Positions 3,235-56,876 are shown, counted from the first letter of the stretch. The stretch is 64,000 nt of DNA from Natronobacterium haloterrestre (GCF_900112205.1 NZ_FOKW01000010.1:62001-126000), one strand, 5' to 3'. Notes: generated from the sequence alone by a model not told the origin. A program made the numbers and translations.

Positions 3235-4071
3235 TCAACTCCCGAAGACGGCCCGGAGCGCGAACCGGATGTTCCCCTTCCGTTCCATCATGCGCCGGTA
3301 GAAGTACGACAGCCACCGGCCGCCGTAGGGGACGTACTGGTAGACGTCGTACTCCTCGGCGAGGTCGAACTGGGCGTCGGTCCGGACCCCCATGAGCATC
3401 TGAATCTCGAAGTCCGTGCCGTGTTCCTCGTGGAGGTCGATCGCGTGCTCGATGATCGCCGGATCGTGGCTGCCGACCCCGATGCCGCCGTCGAAGTGTT
3501 CGAACGCGTACTCGAGCAGGGCCTTCATTTCCCGGTCGACGCGTTCGGCGTCGGTGTAGGCGACGTCCGCGGGTTCGTCGTAGGCCCCCTTGACGAACCG
3601 GACCTTGCCGGGGACGTCGGCGAGTCGTTCGACGTCCTCGCGGGTGCGCTCGAGGTTGGCCTGGACGCAGACGCCGACGCCGCCGTCGTGTTCGCGGGCG
3701 AGGTCCTCGTAAGCGTCCAGCGTTGCGTCGGTCGTCGTGTGATCCTCCATGTCGATCCAGACGAAGACGCCGTGGTCCCGGGCGGCGTCGACGATCGACT
3801 CGAATTCCTCGCGGAAGACGTCTTCCCCGATGTCGAGACCCAGTTGGGATGGTTTGACCGAGATGCAGGCATCGAGGTCCGAACGGGCGATGTCGGCGAC
3901 GAGCGAGCGATACTCCGCCGCGTCCGACCGGACCGGCGGGCGTTCGTCGTAGTGTTCGCCCAGCAGGTTGACGATCGCTCCGACGTCTCGCCCGTTGATC
4001 GACCGGACGTGGTCGAGCGCCTCCGCGGCGGACTCCCCGGCGACGAACCGGCTTGCGATCGGCGGGATCAT
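3235..4071 (-). CDS. putA: Proline dehydrogenase (PRODH domain)
   Basis: 278-residue FAD-dependent TIM-barrel enzyme that oxidises proline to pyrroline-5-carboxylate and passes electrons to the membrane quinone pool. It is a stand-alone PRODH domain, not the long bifunctional PutA. Motifs seen: SVKPSQLG (71-78), RFVKGAYDEP (158-167), FEIQMLMGVR (221-230) and the proline-binding C-terminal helix YVPYGGRW...YRRMMERKGN (246-267) with the paired arginines. The ATG at 4071 is 22 bases from a TATA box, which supports a leaderless start. No P5C dehydrogenase gene is visible nearby. Confidence 0.9.
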   Translation of the reverse strand: MIPPIASRFVAGESAAEALDHVRSINGRDVGAIVNLLGEHYDERPPVRSDAAEYRSLVADIARSDLDACISVKPSQLGLDIGEDVFREEFESIVDAARDHGVFVWIDMEDHTTTDATLDAYEDLAREHDGGVGVCVQANLERTREDVERLADVPGKVRFVKGAYDEPADVAYTDAERVDREMKALLEYAFEHFDGGIGVGSHDPAIIEHAIDLHEEHGTDFEIQMLMGVRTDAQFDLAEEYDVYQYVPYGGRWLSYFYRRMMERKGNIRFALRAVFGS

Positions 4072-4092
4072 ACCGGATACGTCGGTCGCCAG

Positions 4093-4098
4093 TTATAT
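4093..4098 (-). promoter_or_regulatory. TATA box for proline dehydrogenase
   Basis: TTATAT on the plus strand reads ATATAA toward the gene start at 4071, 22-27 bases away. That is the spacing expected for a leaderless archaeal transcript. Confidence 0.55.
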
Positions 4099-4291
4099 GG
4101 AATTTGGTATAGCGGCGTCGTGCGTCGACGGACGGACCCGCGTGTTCACGGCCTGCTCCGCGCTCGAGTGACGGCGGTCGTGACTGTCGCTGGCGGGGAC
4201 AGGTGGGGCGGTTTCGGGCGTGCTCGACCGTAGGGGAACCGGCCGGACGCGACCGGTAAGCCAAAGCCTCGTCAGGCGACACCGCCACTAC

Positions 4292-5272
4292 ATGGACAGC
4301 GATCCGGACGTCGTCGTCCTCCGCGAGGGGACCGAGGGACTGTCGATGGACGCCTACGCCGAACGGCTGCGTGAACGATTGCCCGGCAGCGACGTCGCGC
4401 TCGCGCGGACGCCCCGCGAGGAGCGCGAACTCGTCGCCGAGGCCCCCGTCGTCACCGGGATCGGGATCGACGAGGACCTGCTCGAGGCCGCCGGCGAACT
4501 CGAACTGTTCGCCGCCACCTCGGCGGGGACCGAGCACCTCCCCAAGGACGCGCTTGCGGCCCGCGGTGTCACCGTCACCAACGCGGGCGGGATCCACGCG
4601 CCGGGACTCGCCGAACAGGCGCTCGGCAATATGCTGGTCTTCGCCCGCCGGCTCCACGAGGGCTGGCGACGCAAACGAAACGGCGAGTGGCGACACTTCC
4701 AGTCGGGTGAGTTCACCGGCAGCACCGTCACGATCCTCGGCCTGGGCTCGATCGGCCAGGCGCTCGTCCAGCGCCTCGAGGGATTCGAAGTCGAGACGAT
4801 CGGGGTCCGCTACACCCCCGAGAAGGGCGGCCCGACCGACGAGGTCGTCGGCTTCGACGAGGACGCGATCCACGACGCCTTCGCCCGCAGCGAGTACGTC
4901 GTCGTCGCCTGTCCGCTGACCGACACCACCCGCGGGCTGATCGGCGAGGCCGAACTCGCGACGCTGCCACCCGAGGCCGTCCTCGTCAACGTCGCCCGCG
5001 GGGGGATCGTCGACACCGACGCCCTGGTCGCGGCCCTACAGAAGAACAAGATCCGCGGGGCCGCGCTCGACGTCACCGACCCCGAGCCGCTGCCCAACGA
5101 TCACCCGCTGTGGGACCTCGAGAACTGTCTCATCACGCCCCACACGGGCGGCCACACGCCGAAACACTGGGACCGGATGGCCGACATCGTCGCGTACAAC
5201 GTCGACGCGCTGGAGGCGGGCGACGGAATCGAGGAGTTCCGGAACGTCGTCGTCGCACCCGACTCGGGGTAA
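4292..5272 (+). CDS. NAD(P)-dependent D-2-hydroxyacid dehydrogenase
   Basis: 326-residue two-domain oxidoreductase of the D-isomer-specific 2-hydroxyacid dehydrogenase family, interconverting 2-oxo acids and D-2-hydroxy acids in the cytosol. Dinucleotide motif GLGSIG is at 150-155. The signature NVARGGIVD is at 233-241 with catalytic Arg 236, Glu 265 lies in DPEPLP, and His 284 in the PHTGGH motif. The frame is open 24 codons further upstream, but those residues are Arg-rich and unlike the family, so the ATG at 4292 is preferred. The exact substrate (pyruvate, 2-ketoisocaproate or others) cannot be read from sequence. Confidence 0.9.
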   Translation: MDSDPDVVVLREGTEGLSMDAYAERLRERLPGSDVALARTPREERELVAEAPVVTGIGIDEDLLEAAGELELFAATSAGTEHLPKDALAARGVTVTNAGGIHAPGLAEQALGNMLVFARRLHEGWRRKRNGEWRHFQSGEFTGSTVTILGLGSIGQALVQRLEGFEVETIGVRYTPEKGGPTDEVVGFDEDAIHDAFARSEYVVVACPLTDTTRGLIGEAELATLPPEAVLVNVARGGIVDTDALVAALQKNKIRGAALDVTDPEPLPNDHPLWDLENCLITPHTGGHTPKHWDRMADIVAYNVDALEAGDGIEEFRNVVVAPDSG

Positions 5273-5339
5273 AGGGTCGTACCCGGACCTCGAACCCGAA
5301 TCACCGCAGATTAAGACCCGCCGGTTCGTCCCGGCGGAT

Positions 5340-5885
5340 GTGACACTACTCGAGACTGTCGTTATCGCGTTCTGGGCGATGTTGCCCGCCTACGTACCGA
5401 ACAACGCTGCCGTTCTCGCCGGCGGCGGCCGTCCCATCGACGGCGGACGAACGTGGGGCGACGAGCGCGTCCTCGGCGACGGGAAGACCTGGCGCGGCAC
5501 CGCGGCGGGGATCACGGCCGGCCTGGCGCTCGCGGCCGTCCTGACGCTGCTTGCCGACGACGTCGGCGCGGCGCTCGGGTTCGCGGTGCCGGCGTTCGAA
5601 CCGCTCGCCGCGCTGGGGCTGGCCGCCGGGGCGATGCTCGGCGACATCCTCGCTTCGTTCCTCAAGCGCCGTACGGGTCGCGAGCGCGGGGCGATGTTCC
5701 CCGGGTTCGACCAGCTGGACTTCGTCGTCGTCTCGCTGCCGCTGACGGCGCTTCTGGCGACCGAGTGGTTCCTCGAGTGGTTCACCTGGGACGTGATCCT
5801 CGTGATCGTGGTCCTCACGCCCGTGTTGCACGTGACGACGAACGTAGTCGCCTACAAGTTCGGTCTGAAAGACGAGCCCTGGTAG
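5340..5885 (+). CDS. carS: CDP-archaeol synthase
   Basis: 181-residue membrane enzyme that transfers CMP from CTP to 2,3-bis-O-geranylgeranyl-sn-glycerol phosphate, committing the archaeal core lipid to polar head-group attachment. The start is GTG at 5340; an overlapping ATG at 5338 is followed at once by a stop. Marks: N-terminal helix with AMLPAYVPNNAAVL, the DGK-TWRG motif (GDGKTWRGT near residue 45), and a cytosolic loop with GDILASFLKRRTGRERG before the FPGFDQLDF segment. Five or so membrane segments. Downstream of the dehydrogenase by 67 bases, possibly its own unit. Confidence 0.93.
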   Translation: MTLLETVVIAFWAMLPAYVPNNAAVLAGGGRPIDGGRTWGDERVLGDGKTWRGTAAGITAGLALAAVLTLLADDVGAALGFAVPAFEPLAALGLAAGAMLGDILASFLKRRTGRERGAMFPGFDQLDFVVVSLPLTALLATEWFLEWFTWDVILVIVVLTPVLHVTTNVVAYKFGLKDEPW

Positions 5886-5930
5886 TCCGGTCCCCGAACC
5901 GCGGTCTTCTCCTCTTCCTCGTTTTCCCGA

Positions 5931-6890
5931 CTACTCGAGTGCGTCCCGGAGATCCGCCACGGCGTCGTCGTAGGCCTCGTGGGCGCGCTCGAGGTCGATC
6001 GGGCCGCCGACCATCGAGAAGAACCCGTGGACGACGTCGTCGTAGTGGTGGTGTGCGACCGGGACGCCCGCCTCCTCGAGGCGGTCGGCGTAGGCCCCGC
6101 CGTCGTCACGCAGGGGGTCGAACCCCGCGGTGACGACCGTCGCGGGCGGCAGGTCCGACAGGTCGTGGGCGCGACGGGGTAGCGCGTAGACGTTCCCCCG
6201 GTCGACCTCGTCGGCGAAGTACTGCTGGCCGAACCAGTCGACCTCGTCGGCGGTCAGGAAGTACCCCTCGGCGTTTTCCTCGTAGGCCGCGGTTGCAGTG
6301 ACGTCGCCCGTGCTCGGGTAGATCAGCAACTGATAGGCCGGCTCGGGACCGCCGTGGTCGCGCGCGAAAAGCGCCGTCGCGGCCGCGAGGTTCCCGCCCG
6401 CGCTGTCGCCCGCGAGGACGATCCGGTCCGGGTCGGCCTCGAGGTCGGGCGCGGCCTCGGTTGCCCACTCGAGGGCGGCGTAGCAGTCCCGTAGCGCCGC
6501 GGGGAAGGGGTGTTCGGGCGCGAGCCGGTAGTCGACGCTGACGACGGGGTAACCCGACTCGGCGGCGAGTTTCCGGCAGGTCACGTCGTGGGTCTCGAGG
6601 CCCCCGATCACCCAGCCGCCGCCGTGGAGGTAGAGGACGAGCGGTTCGTCCGCGGGCGCTGCTCGCGGCTCGTAGTACCGGATCGGCAGGTCGCCGTCCG
6701 GGCCGTCGATGGTCCGGTCCTCGACGGCCTCGAGGCCGATCTCCGCCCCGGCTCCGACCTGGAGCTGTTCGAACAGTTCGCGAGCCTCCGCGGGCGGGAC
6801 CTCCTCGAAGTCGGGGACGTCGACCGACTCGTACATGCGGAGAAACGACTGCACGTCCGGGTGGGGTTCGTCGGCGCGCGGGAGTGTCAT
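5931..6890 (-). CDS. Alpha/beta hydrolase, HSL/lipase family esterase
   Basis: 319-residue carboxylesterase-like enzyme. Oxyanion-hole motif HGGGW is at 89-93, and the nucleophile elbow GDSAGG at 161-166 puts catalytic Ser at 163. GFDPLRDDG with the acid residue and the C-terminal VVHGF with the His follow. This is the hormone-sensitive-lipase (class IV esterase) layout. The open frame continues 43 codons upstream, but that part is unlike the family and overlaps the pyrE promoter, so the ATG at 6890 is used. It diverges from pyrE. Physiological substrate unknown. Confidence 0.87.
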
Positions 6891-6962
6891 CGAACGAATG
6901 GTTCCGCCGCCGGCGCAAAAAGGTAGGGTTGCCGGCAGCGGCGGTCGGGCCGTTCCACACCG

Positions 6963-6969
6963 CTTATTT
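6963..6969 (+). promoter_or_regulatory. TATA box for pyrE
   Basis: CTTATTT, 25-31 bases before the pyrE ATG at 6994, fits an archaeal TATA element driving a leaderless transcript. Confidence 0.55.
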
Positions 6970-6993
6970 CGGTGGCGCGCGCCCCTTCGAGCG

Positions 6994-7539
6994 ATGACGA
7001 CCCAGGACACCCAGGACACTCAGGACCTCATCGACGCGCTCCGGAACGCCGACGCCGTCCAGTTCGGCGAGTTCGAACTCTCCCACGGCGGCACGAGCGA
7101 GTACTACGTCGACAAGTACCTCTTCGAGACGGACCCGACCTGTCTCGAGGCCATCGCCGGGGCCTTCGCCGACCGCGTCGGCGACGACGACAAACTCGCC
7201 GGCGTCGCGCTGGGTGCGGTTCCGCTCGCGGCGGCGACGAGCGTCGCGGCCGACGTCCCCTACGTCATCGCGCGCAAGCAGCGCAAGGAGTACGGCACCG
7301 GAAACCTGATCGAGGGTCGACTCGAGGAGGGCGAGGAGGTCGTCGTCCTCGAGGACATCGTGACGACGGGGACGAGTCTGGTCGAGGCCATCGAGGCGCT
7401 GCGCGAGGCCGGTGCGACGGTAAACCGCGCGCTCGTCGTCGTCGACCGGGAGGAGGGCGGCCGCGAGAACGTCGAGGACGCCGACGTCGAGATGGAGTCG
7501 CTGGTGACCGCGAGCGAGTTGCTGGCCGATCGGGACTGA
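6994..7539 (+). CDS. pyrE: Orotate phosphoribosyltransferase
   Basis: 181-residue type I phosphoribosyltransferase converting orotate and PRPP to OMP, step five of de novo pyrimidine synthesis. Seen: [16 protein letters not shown] near the N-terminus, the [16 protein letters not shown] flexible-loop segment, and the PRPP-binding motif [13 protein letters not shown] (117-129). The N-terminus has an odd direct repeat TQDTQDTQD. The start at 6994 is chosen by TATA spacing and family length. The frame extends upstream but overlaps the divergent esterase start. Confidence 0.93.
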
Positions 7540-7552
7540 TCGCCGCCAGCGG

Positions 7553-7891
7553 TCACTGCCGGGCCCTGTACCGGCGGTAGACGGCCACCGAGAGCACGAG
7601 CGCCAGAACCCCGCCAGCGGTCAGCGTTCCGCCGACGATCCACTGGCCCCGGAAGCCGATCAGCATCGGGCCGAGGGCCACGGCGAACACCCCGGCGTGG
7701 ACGAGGACCCCGACGGTGACGAACGCGAGCAGGGTCGCCCGATCGATCGACGACATCGCCGCCTCGAGGTCGTCGTCGGCGCCCGGGTCTTCGTTTCCGG
7801 ACCCGTCGAACGGATCCTCGAGCGGGTCGCCGGCGAAGGGGTCCTCGAAGGGGTCTTCGAACGGATCGTCGTCCGATGGGTCCAGGGGCAC
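7553..7891 (-). CDS. Small haloarchaeal membrane protein with DPFEDPF repeats
   Basis: 112 residues. The N-terminal third is a low-complexity acidic tail made of DPFEDPFEDPF-like and DPLEDPF units. It is followed by two membrane helices (about residues 53-75 and 82-103) and a short basic C-end (YRRYRARQ). The topology suggests a cytosolic acidic arm attached to a hairpin in the membrane. It resembles unnamed haloarchaeal two-helix proteins. Convergent with pyrE (13 bases between stops). No function can be assigned. Confidence 0.72.
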   Translation of the reverse strand: MPLDPSDDDPFEDPFEDPFAGDPLEDPFDGSGNEDPGADDDLEAAMSSIDRATLLAFVTVGVLVHAGVFAVALGPMLIGFRGQWIVGGTLTAGGVLALVLSVAVYRRYRARQ

Positions 7892-7969
7892 GGTGGAGTT
7901 TCTCGCCCGGTGGAGAAATCCGTTGGGCCAACAGGCCCGGGCCGTCGCGACCGCGTCCCATCACAACGC

Positions 7970-7976
7970 TTTTATC
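7970..7976 (+). promoter_or_regulatory. Promoter of the thrS leader
   Basis: The AT-rich element tttatc within ACGCTTTTATCC resembles an archaeal TATA box. Normal spacing puts the transcription start near 7999, about 155 bases before thrS, so thrS would have a long leader, unlike most genes here. Confidence 0.5.
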
Positions 7977-7998
7977 CCGCTCGAGACTACGCGTAGCC

Positions 7999-8154
7999 AC
8001 GATGGTAGGTGTCCGCTTTACAGGGGCTTTCGCCCGCTTCTAACCACTCACACCTACCGCTCGCTGTGTTTGCGATCGCGACCGCACACAGCGCGGCGGC
8101 GAGCGCGGACGCCCGACCGAACTTCTCACCGAAGTTCCCAACCTAGCTACAGCA
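7999..8154 (+). ncRNA. Structured 5' leader upstream of thrS (three predicted hairpins)
   Basis: The non-coding stretch between a TATA-like element and thrS holds three perfect inverted repeats in tandem. Hairpin 1 pairs GGTAGGTGT (8004-8012) with ACACCTACC (8050-8058) and encloses GGGC-TTTC-GCCC (8024-8035). Hairpin 2 pairs CGCTC plus GCTGTGT (8058-8069) with ACACAGC (8086-8092) and GAGCG (8101-8105). Hairpin 3 pairs GAACTTC (8119-8125) with GAAGTTC (8131-8137). Such a leader is unusual in a leaderless-rich genome. It is inferred, not known, to control ThrRS synthesis; it could also be a separate small RNA. Confidence 0.5.
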
Positions 8155-10119
8155 ATGTCAGAACCAGAACCAGAAGCAAACTCACAGGAACGAATCGCAG
8201 TAGTACTGCCCGACGGCTCCGAACTCGAGGTCGACGCCGACGCAACCGTCGAGGACTGCGCCTACGAGATCGGCCCCGGTCTCGGCAGCGACACCGTCGC
8301 CGGCAAACTCGACGGCGACCTCGTCGCCAAGGAGGAACCCGTCTACGACAGTGCGGAACTCGAGATCATCACCGACGACGGCGGCGAGGAGTACCTCCGC
8401 GTGATGCGCCACTCCGCCTCGCACTGTCTCGCCCAGGCCGTCGAGCGGCTGTACGACGCCGAGGAGGTCAAACTCGCGATCGGTCCGCCGACGGACGAGG
8501 GCTTCTACTACGACTTCGACAACCTGGACGTCGACGAGGACGACCTCGAGGAGATCGAGGCCGAGATGGAGGAGATCGTCGAGGCCGACTACGAGATCGA
8601 ACGCGAGGACGTCTCGATCGAGGAAGCCGAAGAGCGCCTCGAGGACGAACCCTACAAACTCGAACTGCTCTCCGAGTTCGCCGACGAGAACGACCAGGTC
8701 TCGTTCTACAGGCAAGGGGAGTGGGAGGACCTCTGTGCCGGTCCGCACGTCGACTCGACGGGCGAGATCGGCGCGGTGAAACTGCTCGAGATCGCTGGCG
8801 CGTACTGGCGCGGCGACGAGGAAAACGAGATGCAGACCCGCATCTACGGCACCGCGTTCGAGGACGAGAGCGACTTAGAGGAGTTCCTCGAGCGGAAACG
8901 CGAGGCCGAGAAACGGGATCACCGGCGGATCGGCAACGACATGAACCTCTTCTCGATCCAGGACGTCACCGGACCCGGCCTCCCGCTGTATCACCCGCCG
9001 GGCAAGACCGTCCTCAAGGAACTCGAGGACTTCGTCGAGGATCTCAACCAGGACGCCGGCTACGACTACGTCGAAACGCCTCACGTCTTCAAGACGGACC
9101 TCTGGCACCGCTCGGGCCACTACGAGAACTACGCCGACGACATGTTCATCTTCGACGTCGGCGACGACGAGTTCGGTCTGAAGCCGATGAACTGTCCGGG
9201 CCACGCCGCCATCTTCCAGGACCAGTCCTGGAGCTACCGCGACCTCCCGATCCGGTACGCCGAGAACGGGAAGGTGTATCGGAAAGAACAGCGCGGCGAA
9301 CTATCGGGGCTCTCCCGGGTCTGGGCCTTCACCATCGACGACGGCCACCTGTTCGTCCGCCCCGACCAGATCGAACAGGAGGTCGAGGAGATCATGGGGA
9401 TGATCACGGACGTTCTCGAGACGTTCGACCTCGAGTACGAGATGGCGCTGGCCACCCGCCCCGAGAAGTCCGTCGGGAGCGACGAGATCTGGGAGAGAGC
9501 GGAGGATCAGCTCCGGAGCGTCCTCGAGGACCACGGCCACGAGTACGAGATCGAGGAGGGCGACGGGGCCTTCTACGGCCCGAAGATCGACTTCGCGTTC
9601 GAGGACGCCATCGGCCGCTCGTGGGACGGCCCGACGGTCCAACTGGACTTCAACATGCCCGAGCGGTTCGACCTCTCCTACGTGGGCGAGGACAACGAGG
9701 AACACCGCCCCGTGATGATCCACCGCGCGCTGTATGGCAGCTACGAGCGGTTCTTCATGATGCTCATCGAGCACTTCGAAGGGAAGTTCCCGCTCTGGCT
9801 CGCGCCCGAACAGGTCCGCGTGCTACCGATCTCCGACGAGAACCTCGAGTACGCCCGCGAGATCGCGGCGGAGTTCGACGACTTCCGCGTCGAGGTCGAC
9901 GACCGCGACTCCACCTTGGAGCGCAAGATCCGCGCGGCTCACGACGATCGGGTCCCCTACCAGATCATCGTCGGCGACAACGAGGAGGAGGCCGGCAACA
10001 TCTCGGTGCGCGACCGCTTCGAGGACCAGGAGTACGACGTCGAGATCGAGGCGTTCAAGGAGCATCTCGAGGACGAACGCGACGAGCAGCGGCCCCAGCC
10101 CGACTTCCTGCAGGACTGA
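8155..10119 (+). CDS. thrS: Threonyl-tRNA synthetase, bacterial type
   Basis: 654-residue class II synthetase charging tRNA-Thr. Order: TGS domain (about 10-75), N2 editing domain with HSASH (86-90) and the partner motif [10 protein letters not shown] near residue 200, catalytic core with the zinc Cys in MNCPGH and motif 2 ([18 protein letters not shown]), and a C-terminal anticodon-binding domain. It carries the bacterial-type editing domain, not the DTD-like domain of most archaeal ThrRS, a known haloarchaeal trait that points to ancient transfer. Preceded by a structured leader. Very acidic surface composition. Confidence 0.96.
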
Positions 10120-10218
10120 CGACGGGATCGAGCCGGCCCGGTTTCGAACCACGTTCGTGGATACCAAACCACGTCCGGTGATCGAAATACCCATAGTTGC
10201 GGAATCGTGCATACCTAT

Positions 10219-10929
10219 ATGAACCGCGCCGAGAAGGCCGCCCTCCAGTTGCGGGCGGTCGACGTGTTGCGAATGCTCAAAGAGACCCGGACGTACGAGG
10301 AACTCGCCGAGACGACGGGGCTCCCCGCGGGCGACCTCAACCGCTACGTCAACGGCCACGTCCTCCCGGGCACGGATCGTGCCCGCGAGGTGGTCGAGGA
10401 ACTCGGCCGCGAGGCATTGGCCGGCGAACTCGACGCCCGCATCCGGGTCGACGACGAGGGGTACGTCGACAACTCCGAGACCGTCTTCGACCAGTCCTTC
10501 CTCGATCTAGTCGCGCCGGTCGTCGCCAACGGCTTCGATTTCGGCCGCCCCGACGTCGTGCTCACCGCGGCGACCGACGGAATCACGCTCGCCGCTTCGC
10601 TGGCCAGTTACTACGGGACTCGCTGTGCCTACGCGAAGAAGAGCAAGGAGACCGCCGTCGAGGAGTTCATCGAGGCCCGCGAACGGCTCCAGTCGGGGAT
10701 CGAACTCACTTACTACCTCCCAGCGGGAGCCATCGACGCCGGTGAATCCGTCCTCGTCGTCGACGACCTCATCCGCTCGGGGGAGACGCAGGAACTCCTG
10801 CTCGATATCGTCGACGCCGCCGACGCCGAGGTCGCCGGCGTGTTCGCGCTCATCGCCGCCGGCGACGACGGAATCGAACGCGCCCGTGAACAGACCGACG
10901 CGCCGGTCGGCTCGCTGACGAGCGTCTGA
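10219..10929 (+). CDS. HTH-phosphoribosyltransferase fusion, likely purine/sugar-responsive regulator
   Basis: 236 residues. Residues 1-65 form a helix-turn-helix (LKETRTYEELAETTGLPAGDLNRYVNG). Residues 75-236 are a type I phosphoribosyltransferase fold with the PRPP loop VLVVDDLIRSGET (178-190). The layout matches PurR- and GfcR-type regulators, in which a PRTase domain senses PRPP and no longer acts as an enzyme. It is not close to the GfcR sequence I remember, so no symbol is given. The ATG at 10219 is preferred to the GTG at 10207 since the family begins MNRAEKAALQL. It lies 99 bases after thrS with an AT-rich element (aaataccca) upstream. Confidence 0.82.
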   Translation: MNRAEKAALQLRAVDVLRMLKETRTYEELAETTGLPAGDLNRYVNGHVLPGTDRAREVVEELGREALAGELDARIRVDDEGYVDNSETVFDQSFLDLVAPVVANGFDFGRPDVVLTAATDGITLAASLASYYGTRCAYAKKSKETAVEEFIEARERLQSGIELTYYLPAGAIDAGESVLVVDDLIRSGETQELLLDIVDAADAEVAGVFALIAAGDDGIERAREQTDAPVGSLTSV

Positions 10930-11001
10930 ACCCACGATCGACGTTTCGACACCCGTCTTCTCCCCGATCGAACCGTCCCGTTTCGACCGTCTCAGCAGCA
11001 G

Positions 11002-11454
11002 TCACCCCTCGCGTTCGGCTTCGACCGTCCCGTCCGACTCGAGTTCGTCGAACAGCGCCGACACTCGCTCGCGTACCTCCTCGCGGATCTCCCGGACGCG
11101 CTCGAGGTCTTCTTCACCTGGGTCCGGGAGGTCCCAGTCCCGAACGTCCACCCCGGCGTCGAGTTCCAGCGTCGAACACCCCATCGTTGCGACGCGATCG
11201 CAGGTCTCGAGCGTCTCGGTCGAGACCTCCTGTGGCGTGCGGTCCGAGAGATCGAACCCCTCTTCGGCCATCGCCTCCGCGACTACCTCGTGTACGTCGT
11301 CGACCGGGTGGGTTCCGCCGGTGACGATCTCGAGGTCCTCGAGGCCGCGATCCGCCTTCTCGCGCTCGGCGTAAGCAGTTGCCATCTGGCTTCGTCCCGC
11401 GTTCCGGACGCAAACGAAGGCGATTCGACGGCCGGAGTTCGGTTCGGAATCCAT
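11002..11454 (-). CDS. Low-molecular-weight phosphatase / ArsC-like protein
   Basis: 150-residue member of the LMW protein tyrosine phosphatase / thioredoxin-type arsenate reductase family. The active-site P-loop C-V-R-N-A-G-R-S (Cys 15, Arg 21) matches CX5R(S/T). The general-acid loop DWDLPDP is in the expected place near residue 115. A Cys in TMGCS (about residue 92) could act as a resolving cysteine as in ArsC, but a second C-terminal Cys pair is not obvious. Function may be arsenate reduction or protein dephosphorylation; no ars genes are adjacent. Confidence 0.84.
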   Translation of the reverse strand: MDSEPNSGRRIAFVCVRNAGRSQMATAYAEREKADRGLEDLEIVTGGTHPVDDVHEVVAEAMAEEGFDLSDRTPQEVSTETLETCDRVATMGCSTLELDAGVDVRDWDLPDPGEEDLERVREIREEVRERVSALFDELESDGTVEAEREG

Positions 11455-11590
11455 GCGGAAGAGGACGGCGGGCGCTTACCTAACGGTTCGTATGTGTGTT
11501 CCTGTGGGATACGTTCGCACGGGTATCGCACGGGTATCGAGTTCGGACGGAAAGTAGTTCGAGGCCCGAAGAAACGACCGAAAACGGTAG

Positions 11591-51817: not shown

Positions 51818-52312
51818 ATGAGCGACAAGCCGTGGACCGACCGGATCGTCGGCGAGCGGATGACCGTCGATCAGGAGTTCTCCTCGCGGATTCGGGACTC
51901 GCGGTTCTCGAACCAGCAGTGGAGCCTGATCATGACGGCGACGGAGTTCGAGATCGAACGCGCCGACGACCCCGAAAACGCGCGACTCGTCGCGGACACC
52001 GAACAGGTCGAACAGATCATTCCGGAACTCGAGAACGTCCAGTCCGGGATGGGCGCGATGGGTGGCCCCGGGGGAGGTGGAGGCGGAGGCGCCGGCCCCG
52101 GATCGCGCGACTCCTCCGGCGGCCTCGTCGACTCGATCAAGGGCGCGCTCGGACTGGGCGGCGGTTCCGGACCCGGCTCCGGCGGCGATCACGACGAGAA
52201 ACTGGCGGCGGCAGAACGGCTCACCCAGGAGTACGCCGACGAACTCCAGTCCCACCTCGAGGACAACGGCCGCTGGGACTCCGTCCGCGAGGCCGCGGCG
52301 GAGAGCGAATAG
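51818..52312 (+). CDS. DUF5799 family haloarchaeal protein
   Basis: 164 residues: MSDKPWTDRIVGERMTVDQEF and RFSNQQWSLIMTATEFEIERADDPENARLVADT are typical of this haloarchaeal family (recognised from memory). A Gly-rich low-complexity segment (GGPGGGGGGGAGPG) breaks the chain, followed by a helical end with EYADELQSHLEDNGRWDSV. Function unknown. Confidence 0.78.
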   Translation: MSDKPWTDRIVGERMTVDQEFSSRIRDSRFSNQQWSLIMTATEFEIERADDPENARLVADTEQVEQIIPELENVQSGMGAMGGPGGGGGGGAGPGSRDSSGGLVDSIKGALGLGGGSGPGSGGDHDEKLAAAERLTQEYADELQSHLEDNGRWDSVREAAAESE

Positions 52313-52354
52313 CGGCCGCTGACGGCGCTCGGGTTCCCGTCGGCCGTAGCGACG

Positions 52355-52498
52355 TCAGTCGCCGGCCCGAAACAGGGTGTACTCGCTGGTCTCGTAGATG
52401 TTGATCAGTTCGTTGACCAGCTCGTCGTAGGACTCGTCCTCGACGCGCAGTGCGTCCAGCCGCTCGATGGTCTCCTCCTCGAGTTCGACGGTCGGCAT
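52355..52498 (-). CDS. Small RHH/antitoxin-like protein, 47 aa
   Basis: MPTVELEEETIERLDALRVED and ESYDELVNELINIYETSEYTLF: a strand, then two helices, much like the N-domain of a VapB/RHH antitoxin. No toxin gene is adjacent (neighbour is DUF5799 in the other direction). Such orphan RHH mini-proteins are common in haloarchaea. Start 52498 has a promoter-like element (gcttttgcc, minus strand) upstream. Confidence 0.72.
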   Translation of the reverse strand: MPTVELEEETIERLDALRVEDESYDELVNELINIYETSEYTLFRAGD

Positions 52499-52662
52499 AC
52501 GTGAGGGTTCGACGGCGACGGGCAAAAGCGCCACGGGGATTTCAGGGGGCGTCCCGACGGGCGGGGCGGTCGGGGACGAACACGACGCCGTCCGTGTCCG
52601 ACGGCTCGCCCTTACGACTGCAAGTCACAGCACCTTTAGGCACGGTTCCCGACCGTCAGTGT

Positions 52663-52947
52663 ATGACCGACGTAGACACGGTTACCGTTTCGATCGAAGC
52701 CGACGACTCCACTGACGAAGTCACCATCCCCGCCGGACTCCTCGACCTCGTCGCGGAGGGCGACCAGACCACCGCCGAGACGATCGGCGACGTCGCCCTG
52801 CTGTCGTTCGCCAGCCGCGCCCACCACGTCGTCCACCACGGCGAGGGCAGCGACGAGGAACTCGAGGCCCAGGAGGAACGCGTCATGGAGCTGTTCGAGG
52901 AGCGCTTCGGCGTGACGTTCGGCGAAGCGACCGGGCACCAGCACTGA
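52663..52947 (+). CDS. Small haloarchaeal protein, 94 aa (DUF7545-like)
   Basis: From ATG 52663 (MTDVDTVTVSIEADDSTDEVTIPAGLLDLVAEG). The centre has FASRAHHVVHHGEGSDEELEAQEERVMELFEERF with several His. This matches, from memory, a conserved small haloarchaeal family of unknown role. An AT-rich element (cctttagg) lies about 25 bases upstream. Its stop codon lies inside a 13-bp tandem repeat. Confidence 0.75.
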   Translation: MTDVDTVTVSIEADDSTDEVTIPAGLLDLVAEGDQTTAETIGDVALLSFASRAHHVVHHGEGSDEELEAQEERVMELFEERFGVTFGEATGHQH

Positions 52948-53030: not shown

Positions 53031-56000
53031 CTACGGTGCCGTGCCGGTCGATTCGTTCCCCGCGCCGGGGTCGTCTTCGATCTGTATTCCGTTTTCGTCG
53101 CCGACGAACTCGTTGCCGTCGGCACCGCCGTCACCGCCGCCATCGCCGTCACCGCCGACTCCTGCACCGATACCGTCCCCGTCAGTTCCGCCGCCGTCGT
53201 CCGTTCCGATCCCCGCGTCGCCCGTATCGGTCGGCGCCTCGAGCGTCACCGTCGTCTCGACCGTCTCGTTGGCCGTCGAGACCGTCGCCGTGTACGCACC
53301 CGGCTCCAGGTCCGCCGTCCCGGCGGTCAGCGACACCGTCGCCGCGTCGCCGGCCTCGAGTTCGAGCGGCGGCTCCGTCGCGTCGACGACGGTTCCGTCG
53401 AGGGCCAGTTCGACCGTCTGCGTGCCGGCTCGCTCGCCGACGTTTGCGACCGTCGCCTCGAACAGGAGCTCGTCCCCCTGTTCGACTGGCGCGTTCGTCG
53501 CGAGCGCTTCGAAAACGAACTGCTCCGGTTCCTCGTCGAAGTCGGCGATCTCCCCCGCGGGGTCGGTCTCGGCGACGAGCACCTCGTCGTAGTCGTAGAT
53601 GCCCATGTCGGCGGTCCAGACGAGTCGCTCCTCCTCGGTTTCGGGCGTCCACTCGACCGTGAACGTCCCCTCGCCGGGCGCGAGTTCCTCGAGAGGCTCG
53701 TCCTCGGTCGCGCCCTCGAGTTCGCTCCGGACGAGCACGGGCGCGTCGTTGGGGTTCTCGTAGCCGAAGGTCACGTCGATCGTGGGGGGCTCGTCGCCCT
53801 CGCCGTCGTCGACGACGGTCGTCTCCGCGACGAACGTCGACGGGAGTTCCGGGCGGGTCTCCTCGATACACTCCTCGCCCTCCGGATTGGGGTGGTCGAT
53901 CCCCGCGACCGGGAACGCTTCGGGCGAGGTGATGCCCGTGATGGTGGTCCCGTAACTGCCGTAGTCGCCGACGGCGACCGTCACCTCGTCGTCAGCGGTG
54001 CGTGTGATCCGGTCGTCGGCTTCCCCGTCGACCTCGAAGACGATCGTTCCCGTAAACGGTGCCTCGACGTCCTCGCCGACCGTCACGAAGTCCTCGGCGA
54101 TCGTGTTGCCGAACCCGCCTAAGGTGTAGAACCCGGTGCTGGCCGCGATGGAGTCGCCCTCCTCGAAAGAGTCGCTGACCTCGGCCCGGCGACAGTCGAC
54201 GAACTCGACTTCGAACCCCTCGTCGAGGGTGTACTCGAACGTCTCGTTGACGAGGACGTCGCCGTCGGCCGCGTCGATCACCGCCGCCTCGAGCGTCGCG
54301 TCTTCCTCGAGGGGGTCGTCGAGGTCGATCGTCTCGTTCTCGAGGGTTTCGTCGGCCGGGAACGGGTCGGTTTCGACGAGGGGGTCGTCGCCGGCGGCGT
54401 CCGCCTCGGCGACCGTGAGCGCGTAGTCGACGGTGGCGTTCGCGGCCGCTATCGTCACGGTCTCGCCGTCGCCGCGCTGATCGGTGACCGTGAGGTTCGC
54501 GTCCGGCGCGGGTTCCGGCGGTTCGGGCTCGGTGTCGTCTTCGACGGTGTACTCGATCGACTCCGTCGCGAGCGCCTCGTCGTCCGCGGCGTCGCGGACC
54601 GAGACGTCGACCGTCGCGTTCTCCTCGAGCGGCGGCTCGAGCGGTGGCTCGAGCGGTGGCTCGAGCGCGAGCGAGAGGTTCTCGACGGGTTCGCCGGCCG
54701 CGAAGACGTCGCTGTCGACCCGCTCGCCGTCGTACTCGGCGCTGACGAGGTAGTCGACGGTGGCGTTGGCCTCGTCGACGGTCAGCGTCTCGCCGTCGCC
54801 GGACTGGTCGGAGACGGAGAGCGTGGCTTCCGGCTCGGGTTCGGGCTCGGGTTCTGGTTCTGGTTCTGGTTCCTCGGGCCCCTCGACCGTCACGAACGCC
54901 CCGTCGAGGACCGGCCCGCCGCCGGCCGTAACGTACGGTTCGTCCTCCTCGCCGTCGCTCTCGACGTAGCGGAACGTCTCGTCGTCGGTCGTGTCGTGGT
55001 GGACGACGGCGACGAGCGGACGGCTCTCCTCGAGCGGTTCGTCGAACTCCACGGTCACGTTCTCGTGGCTGCCGGGCTCGAGGTACGCCGACGCGCCCAG
55101 CACCGCGTCGGGATCGGCGTCGACCGTAACCCCGTCGTAGACGGCGACGAAGCCGCCCTCGGAGAGTTCGACCGAGTCGATCACGACGCTGTCGCCGTCG
55201 GACTCCTGGTCGTCGAACGCGATCGTCGCCTCACCCTCGCGTTCGTCGATTCGCTCGATCCGCTGGACGACCTCGACCTCGACGTACTGGACGAGCACGG
55301 CCGGGTCGTCCGTTCCCTCGTCGACCGCGTAGGCGGTCGCGTCGGCCGCGGTCTCGGCCGTCACCCGCTGGAGTTGCGTGACGCTGATCCGCTGGGATTG
55401 CACCGCGCGGGCGGTCTCCTGGCTCGCGCTCGTCGCGGCGACCTGGATCTGTTCGACGGTCGCCTCCTGGTACCCCGAGAGCGCCCCGGTCGCGCTTCCG
55501 CTGGCGAGCCGCTGGACCTGTACGACGTCGACGACCTGTTTCTGGAGCACCGCGCCCTCGCCGGCGCCGGCCGCGGCGGCCTGGATCGCCTCGACCTCGA
55601 CGACCTGGTACTGGACCGCCGACTCGACGGCCCCTTTCGCTGCCCCCGTCGCGGCGGATTGGATCTGCGTGATCGACACCTCCTGGCGCTGGACGAGCGT
55701 CCCGCGGGCGCCCCCGTCGGCGGCGGCCTGGATCTGCTCGACCGTCGCCTCCTGGCGCTGGATCGCGCCCTTCGCCGCCCCGAACGACGCCTCCTGGATC
55801 GCGGTGATCGTGATCCGCTGGACCTGCTGGACGGTCACCGATCGGGCAGCCTTGGCGGCCCCTTTGCTCGCACCCCGGGCCGCGGACTGTGTCTGCTCGA
55901 CGGTCACCCGCTGGCGCTGGACGAGCGCTCCCTTCGACGCGCCTATCGCCGCCTTCTGGACCTGTTTGACGTCGATTCGCTGGTACTGCTCGGCTTCGAC

Positions 56001-56876
56001 GGCGAGCGTCTCGGTCGCCCCCTCGAGGACGCCGGCGCTCGCGCCCGCGGCCGCGTGCTGGACGTGTTCGAGGGTAACCCGCTGGCGCTGTTCGACCGTG
56101 ATCTTTCCGTACTGCGAGAGGACGCCATAAGCCGCGCCCTGGCCGGCCTCCCGGATCGTCGGCCCGTGCTCGACGCCGGACGTGGCGGCTCCGCTCGCCG
56201 CCCCGGCCGCCGCCCCGCGGGTCGCGACCTGGATCTGTTCGACGGTCACGCGCTGCTCCTGGGCGATCGCGCCGTGGGTCGCGCCCCAGGCCGCGCTCTG
56301 CATCTGGCTCGCCTCGACCCGCGTGTACTGGGCGAGCGCGCCGTCGACCGCCCCGCCGACGGCGTACTGGATCGCCGTGACGTTGACCTCCTGGCTCGCC
56401 ACCAGCGAGCCGTGGACCGCGCCCTTCGTCGCCTCTCGGACCTGCTCGTCGTCGGCGTCCTCGTACCGGGCCGCGAACTCGGCCGCGCCCTCGAGGGCCG
56501 CCTCGCGCTGTTCCTGGGTTACCTCGACGCCCTGGGCCTCGGCGAGTTCGACCCCCGCGTCGACGCCGGCCTCGACGACGTCCTCGCGGTCCTCCTGGAG
56601 TTGAGGCTGGGGCTGGCCCGCCGAGTTCGCGTCGTCGCCGTCTCCATCGCCGTCGGTCGCGGGCGACGGCATCGAGAGGGGTTCGCTGCCCACATCGGCT
56701 GTCGACCCCTCGGGCGTCGCCTCGAGGTCCGACGCGCCGTCGTCGACCGCACCCTCGTCGGCCTCGCCGTCGCCGATCGGCCCGAAGCCGACGCCGACGA
56801 ACGGTACGGCGAGGACGCTCGTCGTCGCGACGACGGCGAGGAGTACCGCGATCGCCGCCGCTGTTGCTCCTCTCAT
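53031..56876 (-). CDS. Large exported repeat protein with Gln/Ala/Gly repeats and a DUF7282 domain
   Basis: 1281 residues from ATG 56876. Sec-type signal (about 1-24), then an acidic linker. Residues about 163-540 hold some 13 copies of a ~23-residue unit: strand-like V-T-V-E-Q-I-Q, then A-A-x-G-A-A-x-G-A-L and Q-x-Q. A DUF7282-like domain follows (about 549-665), with two related modules after it (DQSGDGETLTV, DQRGDGETVTI) and linkers of repeated PEPE and LEPP. Near the C-end is a CARDB-like beta domain (VEQGDELLFEATVANVG) and a Gly/Asp tail. No PGF-CTERM, sortase motif or transmembrane anchor at the C-end, so it is probably released or bound noncovalently at the cell surface. Repeats likely form a solenoid; function unknown. 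Confidence 0.75.
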   Translation of the reverse strand: MRGATAAAIAVLLAVVATTSVLAVPFVGVGFGPIGDGEADEGAVDDGASDLEATPEGSTADVGSEPLSMPSPATDGDGDGDDANSAGQPQPQLQEDREDVVEAGVDAGVELAEAQGVEVTQEQREAALEGAAEFAARYEDADDEQVREATKGAVHGSLVASQEVNVTAIQYAVGGAVDGALAQYTRVEASQMQSAAWGATHGAIAQEQRVTVEQIQVATRGAAAGAASGAATSGVEHGPTIREAGQGAAYGVLSQYGKITVEQRQRVTLEHVQHAAAGASAGVLEGATETLAVEAEQYQRIDVKQVQKAAIGASKGALVQRQRVTVEQTQSAARGASKGAAKAARSVTVQQVQRITITAIQEASFGAAKGAIQRQEATVEQIQAAADGGARGTLVQRQEVSITQIQSAATGAAKGAVESAVQYQVVEVEAIQAAAAGAGEGAVLQKQVVDVVQVQRLASGSATGALSGYQEATVEQIQVAATSASQETARAVQSQRISVTQLQRVTAETAADATAYAVDEGTDDPAVLVQYVEVEVVQRIERIDEREGEATIAFDDQESDGDSVVIDSVELSEGGFVAVYDGVTVDADPDAVLGASAYLEPGSHENVTVEFDEPLEESRPLVAVVHHDTTDDETFRYVESDGEEDEPYVTAGGGPVLDGAFVTVEGPEEPEPEPEPEPEPEPEATLSVSDQSGDGETLTVDEANATVDYLVSAEYDGERVDSDVFAAGEPVENLSLALEPPLEPPLEPPLEENATVDVSVRDAADDEALATESIEYTVEDDTEPEPPEPAPDANLTVTDQRGDGETVTIAAANATVDYALTVAEADAAGDDPLVETDPFPADETLENETIDLDDPLEEDATLEAAVIDAADGDVLVNETFEYTLDEGFEVEFVDCRRAEVSDSFEEGDSIAASTGFYTLGGFGNTIAEDFVTVGEDVEAPFTGTIVFEVDGEADDRITRTADDEVTVAVGDYGSYGTTITGITSPEAFPVAGIDHPNPEGEECIEETRPELPSTFVAETTVVDDGEGDEPPTIDVTFGYENPNDAPVLVRSELEGATEDEPLEELAPGEGTFTVEWTPETEEERLVWTADMGIYDYDEVLVAETDPAGEIADFDEEPEQFVFEALATNAPVEQGDELLFEATVANVGERAGTQTVELALDGTVVDATEPPLELEAGDAATVSLTAGTADLEPGAYTATVSTANETVETTVTLEAPTDTGDAGIGTDDGGGTDGDGIGAGVGGDGDGGGDGGADGNEFVGDENGIQIEDDPGAGNESTGTAP

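Follow-up and report, generated by a model that had tools for sequence, protein, structure and literature searches.

Locus, Gene and Protein

The window, a stretch of 64,000 nucleotides from Natronobacterium haloterrestre, carries on its minus strand a gene for a protein of 1281 amino acids (Table 1). The initial annotation had described a giant exported protein with repeats, and the gene is genuine: purifying selection acts on it (dN/dS of about 0.17–0.36 overall, 0.18–0.29 in the repeat and 0.17–0.36 in the C-terminal part) and full-length relatives occur in dozens of genomes. Thus, it is neither a product of chance nor an artefact. The protein is probably exported, as its N terminus by eye resembles a signal sequence, in which the pattern TSxxALPxLgGg is kept among orthologues; no C-terminal membrane segment is present in the sequence, in agreement with the earlier description of a signal peptide without an anchor.

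Table 1. Features of the protein and their positions in the window.
Feature	Residues	Window positions	Strand	Basis
Open reading frame	1281 aa	53031-56876	(-)	ATG at 56876, stop 53031-53033
Sec-type signal sequence or N-terminal membrane segment, MRGATAAAIAVLLAVVATTSVLAV	1-24	56805..56876	(-)	sequence; orthologue pattern
Acidic linker, poorly conserved	25-94	56595..56804	(-)	conservation profile
Gln/Ala/Gly repeat domain	95-535	55272..56594	(-)	autocorrelation, alignments, conservation
Starts of the 16 units	118, 141, 164, 187, 210, 236, 267, 301, 324, 355, 377, 400, 426, 449, 472, 497			
Conserved non-repeat patch, units 2-6	H155, W197, H201, A205, E243, Q246, Y250	56127..56414	(-)	56 non-redundant relatives
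8-residue insert ITVEQRQR	259-266	56079..56102	(-)	unit spacing 31 = 23+8, recurrent across family
8-residue insert VTVQQVQR	347-354	55815..55838	(-)	unit spacings
DUF7282, predicted beta-rich	550-663	54888..55229	(-)	Pfam PF23951 E 9.6e-40; AlphaFold pLDDT mostly 79-95
PEPEPE linker	667-683	54828..54878	(-)	sequence
DUF7282-like module 1, with LEPPLEPPLEPP	684-779	54540..54827	(-)	sequence; DNA direct repeat with module 2
DUF7282-like module 2	793-886	54219..54500	(-)	sequence; DNA direct repeat with module 1
Two-cysteine domain	888-1010	53847..54215	(-)	matches to query 885-1010; conservation
CARDB-like domain	1126-1208	53253..53501	(-)	Pfam PF07705 E 2.6e-4, below cut-off
Gly/Asp-rich C-terminal tail, membrane anchor absent		53034..53228	(-)	sequence

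The composition of the repeat domain sets it apart, as had been noted before for both its Gln, normally a rare residue in halophiles, and its low acidity. Gln makes up 12.2% of the repeat vs. 0.9% of the rest of the protein and 2.2% of neighboring genes; Asp and Glu together account for 12.5% in the repeat and 27.4% in the rest, and the net charge is -22 over the 441 residues of the repeat vs. -170 over 671 residues of the rest. Behind the repeats, the initial annotation had placed DUF7282-like modules, PEPE/LEPP linkers and a CARDB-like domain. Of these, DUF7282 is clear (135.7 bits with the PF23951 profile, gathering cut-off 27) and CARDB is weak (21.6 bits against a PF07705 cut-off of 22.7), although the relative L103 scores 37.9 bits, above that cut-off. 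Modules 1 and 2 share DNA direct repeats of the families D13 and D15. The two-cysteine domain, which has no Pfam match, is also present in separate proteins of related genomes.

The neighborhood was compared among 27 named Natrialbaceae loci (Natrialba, Natronorubrum, Natrinema, Haloterrigena, Natronococcus and others). The genes bioY-ecfA-ecfT, whose products proved to be BioY, an ABC ATPase and a T component of the CbiQ type, adjoin the gene divergently in all 27, and DUF7545 lies on its other side in 25 of the 27, mostly followed by DUF5799. In the window, the small genes DUF5799 and DUF7545 (positions 51818-52947, plus strand) adjoin the gene, as they do in nearly all Natrialbaceae loci.

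Organization of the Repeat Array

A cap helix (residues 95–117) is followed by 16 units of about 23 residues that span residues 118–519 and have the pattern [VA]-[TSND]-[VI]-x-Q-[IV]-Q-x-A-A-x-G-A-A-x-G-A-L-x-Q-x-Q-x. About 13 repeats of this length, from residue 163 onward, had originally been counted. The period is well supported (residue autocorrelation at lag 23, z = 8.8 over shuffles), while the count rises to 16 units plus the cap helix and the array begins earlier, at residue 95. The period is broken by the two 8-residue inserts and by several units with three additional residues. Among successive unit spacings in the family, 447 are 23 residues, 81 are 26, 51 are 31 and 28 are 39, which corresponds to steps of +3 and +8.

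Length differences among orthologues (e.g., L047 and L033) cluster in copies of the octad VEVEQxQR between units 7 and 8 (columns 217–250 of alignment A1). In the short relative L109 (positions 4098-5141, minus strand), the tail consists of octads like SVDVSQSQ that lack the Ala/Gly half. Thus, the 8-residue element can stand alone. A second, truncated and near-identical copy of the repeat region, L097 (positions 3679-4485, plus strand), lies on the contig of L096 and is probably the remnant of a recent duplication.

A match of the repeat domain to a characterized family was looked for in Pfam, NCBIfam, PHROGs and PDB sequences. No significant one was found in any of them, consistent with the initial annotation, which knew no function for the architecture. 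A search of the available literature found no paper naming DUF7282 or the repeat.

Distribution and Architectures of the Relatives

The repeat domain was found in most Natrialbaceae, usually as one relative per genome, and haloarchaea of at least four further families carry it too. Some Natrialbaceae genera were without it in the genome samples. Of the 392 genomes in a class-wide sample, 110 carried the domain, including genomes of four other families of the order, and all the matches in a phylum-wide sample fell within the order. Plasmid copies were found only in records of Halobaculum marinum (Haloferacaceae) and Halomicrococcus, where they are annotated as hypothetical protein. A viral or phage origin was rejected, as no relative was found in the scan of IMG/VR or in INPHARED.

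In relatives from outside Natrialbaceae, the repeat domain likewise occupies the N-terminal part, and simple pattern counting gives 2–19 canonical units in each protein. It is followed by DUF7282 copies or by right-handed beta-helix/NosD, TSP3, CAP, CARDB and carboxypeptidase-regulatory-like domains. Several relatives end in a hydrophobic, anchor-like membrane segment with a basic tail and others in a stalk of Thr/Pro or Pro/Glu runs; twin-arginine-like signals are found in L102 and L109. In a frame of 2292 amino acids (L105, positions 4643-11518, plus strand), the repeat domain is combined with TSP3 repeats, numerous copies of an Ig-like module and a CAP domain, and the C-terminal end is hydrophobic and basic. 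Judged from sequence, such layouts suggest modular surface proteins.

Within Natrialbaceae, the stretch equivalent to residues 100–520 is 421–435 amino acids long in nearly all loci (one has 418 and one 447), and no other part of the protein is as well conserved as the repeat domain. In a set of 56 non-redundant relatives, most units vary on their exposed face, except for a patch of non-repeat residues: H201 is found in 56 and H155 in 50, an aromatic residue at position 197 in 55, E243 in 55 and Q246 in 56, and position 250 is Tyr or Phe in 56. These residues belong to every second unit (2, 4 and 6). We regard H155, W/Y/F197, H201, E243, Q246 and Y/F250 as a candidate binding site.

The same observations bear on whether the repeat could be a passive elongated spacer or matrix filler, which would provide length and stiffness and bind no specific ligand. 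The variation of repeat number outside Natrialbaceae, the free exchange of C-terminal partners and the variable residues at most exposed positions are all consistent with such a role. A passive spacer would not, however, be expected to be the best conserved part of the protein, to have an almost fixed length throughout Natrialbaceae or to keep non-repeat His, aromatic and Glu positions on its exposed face across families. We therefore consider this explanation unlikely.

Fold of the Repeat

Structure prediction for residues 92–672 with 28 orthologue sequences (AlphaFold run 1) placed helices in the cap, in the first units and in roughly the last seven, with pLDDT mostly of 60–90, while the middle was poorly predicted (residues ~232–377, pLDDT ~20–45; pTM 0.39). 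The predicted helix starts at about position 3 of the unit. Statistics over about 1000 distinct units revealed Thr, Ser, Asn or Asp at position 2 in 90% of them, as at a helix N-cap. Variability among the units has a helical period over positions 8–18 (p 0.03) and a period of 2 over positions 18–9 (p 0.003–0.006), where local covariation at a separation of 2 is also strong. Because of the latter two properties, an extended linker or short strand is likely at positions 20–2. Val and Ile are strongly preferred over Leu at positions 1 and 3.

Odd and even units differ systematically. Within a protein, units an even number of steps apart resemble each other more at positions 8, 11 and 15 together than units an odd number apart, a difference that none of 400 shuffles reached and that remains without the N-terminal block of units. 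Taken singly, positions 4 and 8 alternate strongly, position 15 with p 0.02 and position 11 with p 0.09, and no significant alternation was found at positions 2, 6, 10, 19, 21 and 23. Positions 4, 8, 11 and 15 line up as a single stripe along an alpha-helix, and the helix should therefore include the VEQIQ part. Duplication of two-unit modules was rejected as the cause of the odd/even similarity, because it would also affect positions 2, 6, 19, 21 and 23, where there was no significant effect.

In the covariation analysis, for which the effective sequence numbers were small (19–241), relatedness was partly removed and several tests drew on the same data, adjacent units covaried as antiparallel helices would (p 0.02–0.04) and not as parallel ones, while next-but-one units covaried as parallel helices (p below 0.001; about 0.01 when the diagonal is left out). 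The strongest covarying pair is position 17 with position 10 of the next unit, where Gly17 goes with Cys, Thr or Ser and Ala17 with Ala, which looks like size compensation.

Given the odd/even alternation, the antiparallel covariation of adjacent and parallel covariation of next-but-one units, the N-cap and the AlphaFold helices, we propose with moderate confidence that each unit forms one helix and that the helices would be arranged as a two-layer alpha/alpha solenoid with a true repeat of 46 residues. As they are in units 2, 4 and 6, the patch residues would lie on one side of the proposed fold.

Three other patterns were considered and set aside. An explanation of the Asn at position 2 by N-glycosylation was rejected, as Ser/Thr enrichment at position 4 is not significant (p 0.06). 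A charge difference between odd and even faces is not a general rule: even faces are more basic and aromatic in Natrialbaceae, and only His reproduces elsewhere. Alternating conservation of the exposed face over the first six units alone offered too few points.

The initial annotation had suggested V-T-V-E-Q-I-Q as the strand of a stacked beta/alpha solenoid with a Gln ladder. In such an LRR-like fold of equivalent, parallel units, a QxQxVxVEQIQ strand with inward-facing Gln would alternate with a short Gly/Ala helix, xAAxGAAxGAL. The period-2 variability and separation-2 covariation of the linker, the helical period over positions 8–18 and the preference for Val and Ile would all fit, and the 8-residue inserts preserve strand phase. 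The supposed strand is, however, included in the helical stripe 4-8-15 whose odd/even alternation equivalent units would not have. Position 2 has the N-cap pattern, the AlphaFold helix starts at about position 3, and supposed strand and helix are not separated by Gly, Pro or Asn turns. Adjacent units, which would have to covary in parallel, do so antiparallel. A fold of this type is thus rather improbable.

Curlin repeats (CsgA) are units of 22–23 residues with regularly spaced Gln and Gly, and the resemblance in unit length and Gln spacing raises the question of whether the domain is a two-strand beta-solenoid that polymerizes into an amyloid matrix fiber. Strands on either side of a Gly turn were indeed predicted for five stacked units from a mixed-register alignment (AlphaFold run 2), but with pLDDT of ~40 and below 50 throughout, and this run was discounted as evidence. 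Amyloid dyes are bound by biofilms of Haloferax volcanii, for which the responsible protein is not settled (PMC4180959), and nothing here links the repeat family to that observation. As the helical odd/even stripe also opposes a curli-like fold and no curlin repeat profile appears in the list of family matches down to E 5, we judge it very improbable.

Proposed Function and Significance

The reading that we favor, at a probability of roughly one half, is that of an exported modular surface or matrix protein in which a solenoid repeat domain with a conserved patch serves as an attachment module. Each 23-residue unit would be one helix (positions ~3–19) with its N-cap at position 2; the Gly/Ala faces (G12, G16, A9 and A13) would permit close packing of helices that are joined by the conserved extended QxQxV linker, and odd and even helices would lie on opposite sides, hence the 46-residue repeat. 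The solenoid may present the patch, for which a conserved partner on the cell surface or in the matrix is the probable ligand, and the acidic DUF7282 and CARDB beta-domains could be spacers and further contact modules. The attachment role is suggested by the architecture and the binding role by conservation of the patch. The biotin ECF transporter encoded next door (bioY-ecfA-ecfT) is most improbable as a functional partner, e.g., of a biotin-capturing surface protein, and this link was set aside, since it is based on synteny within Natrialbaceae, where conservation extends to the genes on the opposite flank, as plain synteny predicts, and such neighbors were not detected in the loci examined from other families.

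More tentatively, the domain might define a new haloarchaeal repeat-domain family, a Gly/Ala-packed solenoid of one helix per unit with alternating faces that would be shared as a recognition or attachment domain by many otherwise different exported proteins and whose conserved His/aromatic/Glu site would bind a conserved component of the envelope or matrix, be it a glycan, a metal or a protein. Its near-fixed length, identity mostly above 60% and maintenance at one locus through most of Natrialbaceae point to a possible envelope function not yet described, and the same domain recurs N-terminally in diverse exported proteins of four or more further haloarchaeal families. Knowledge of surface attachment and matrix proteins in haloarchaea is scant, and the proposed role can be tested with the help of the helical model and the near-invariant H201/W197/E243 patch.

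Comparison with Known Systems

The window protein shares one clear DUF7282 copy with the exported haloarchaeal proteins that contain this domain (PF23951), and relatives from other families have several; the repeat domain, however, lies outside DUF7282 and is found both with and without it. Curlin (CsgA) is matched in unit length and in the regular spacing of Gln and Gly, but the Ala/Gly half of the window repeat is helical in pattern and no curlin match was listed. With leucine-rich repeats and other beta/alpha solenoids, the domain has in common a short repeat, small conserved interior residues and the idea of a polar-residue ladder, while no Pfam LRR match was found and covariation and alternation oppose parallel equivalent units. 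The GxxxG helices are reminiscent of Gly-zipper proteins; nevertheless, the match to PF13441 (3 of 54 family members, best E 0.045) is not significant and the repeat is without the hydrophobicity of a membrane segment.

Foldseek gave no convincing fold match against PDB and viral models; its best PDB match was a designed helical repeat (TM 0.17), and TAL effectors were also among the best. Like HEAT, TPR, TAL-effector and designed helical repeats, the window repeat consists of tandem short helices for which antiparallel neighbors and parallel next-but-one helices are suggested. It differs from them in the absence of a sequence match and in the TM of about 0.17, in having a unit of one 23-residue helix instead of a two-helix unit of 34–40 residues, and in being a Gly/Ala-packed repeat with Gln-rich linkers in an exported halophilic protein.
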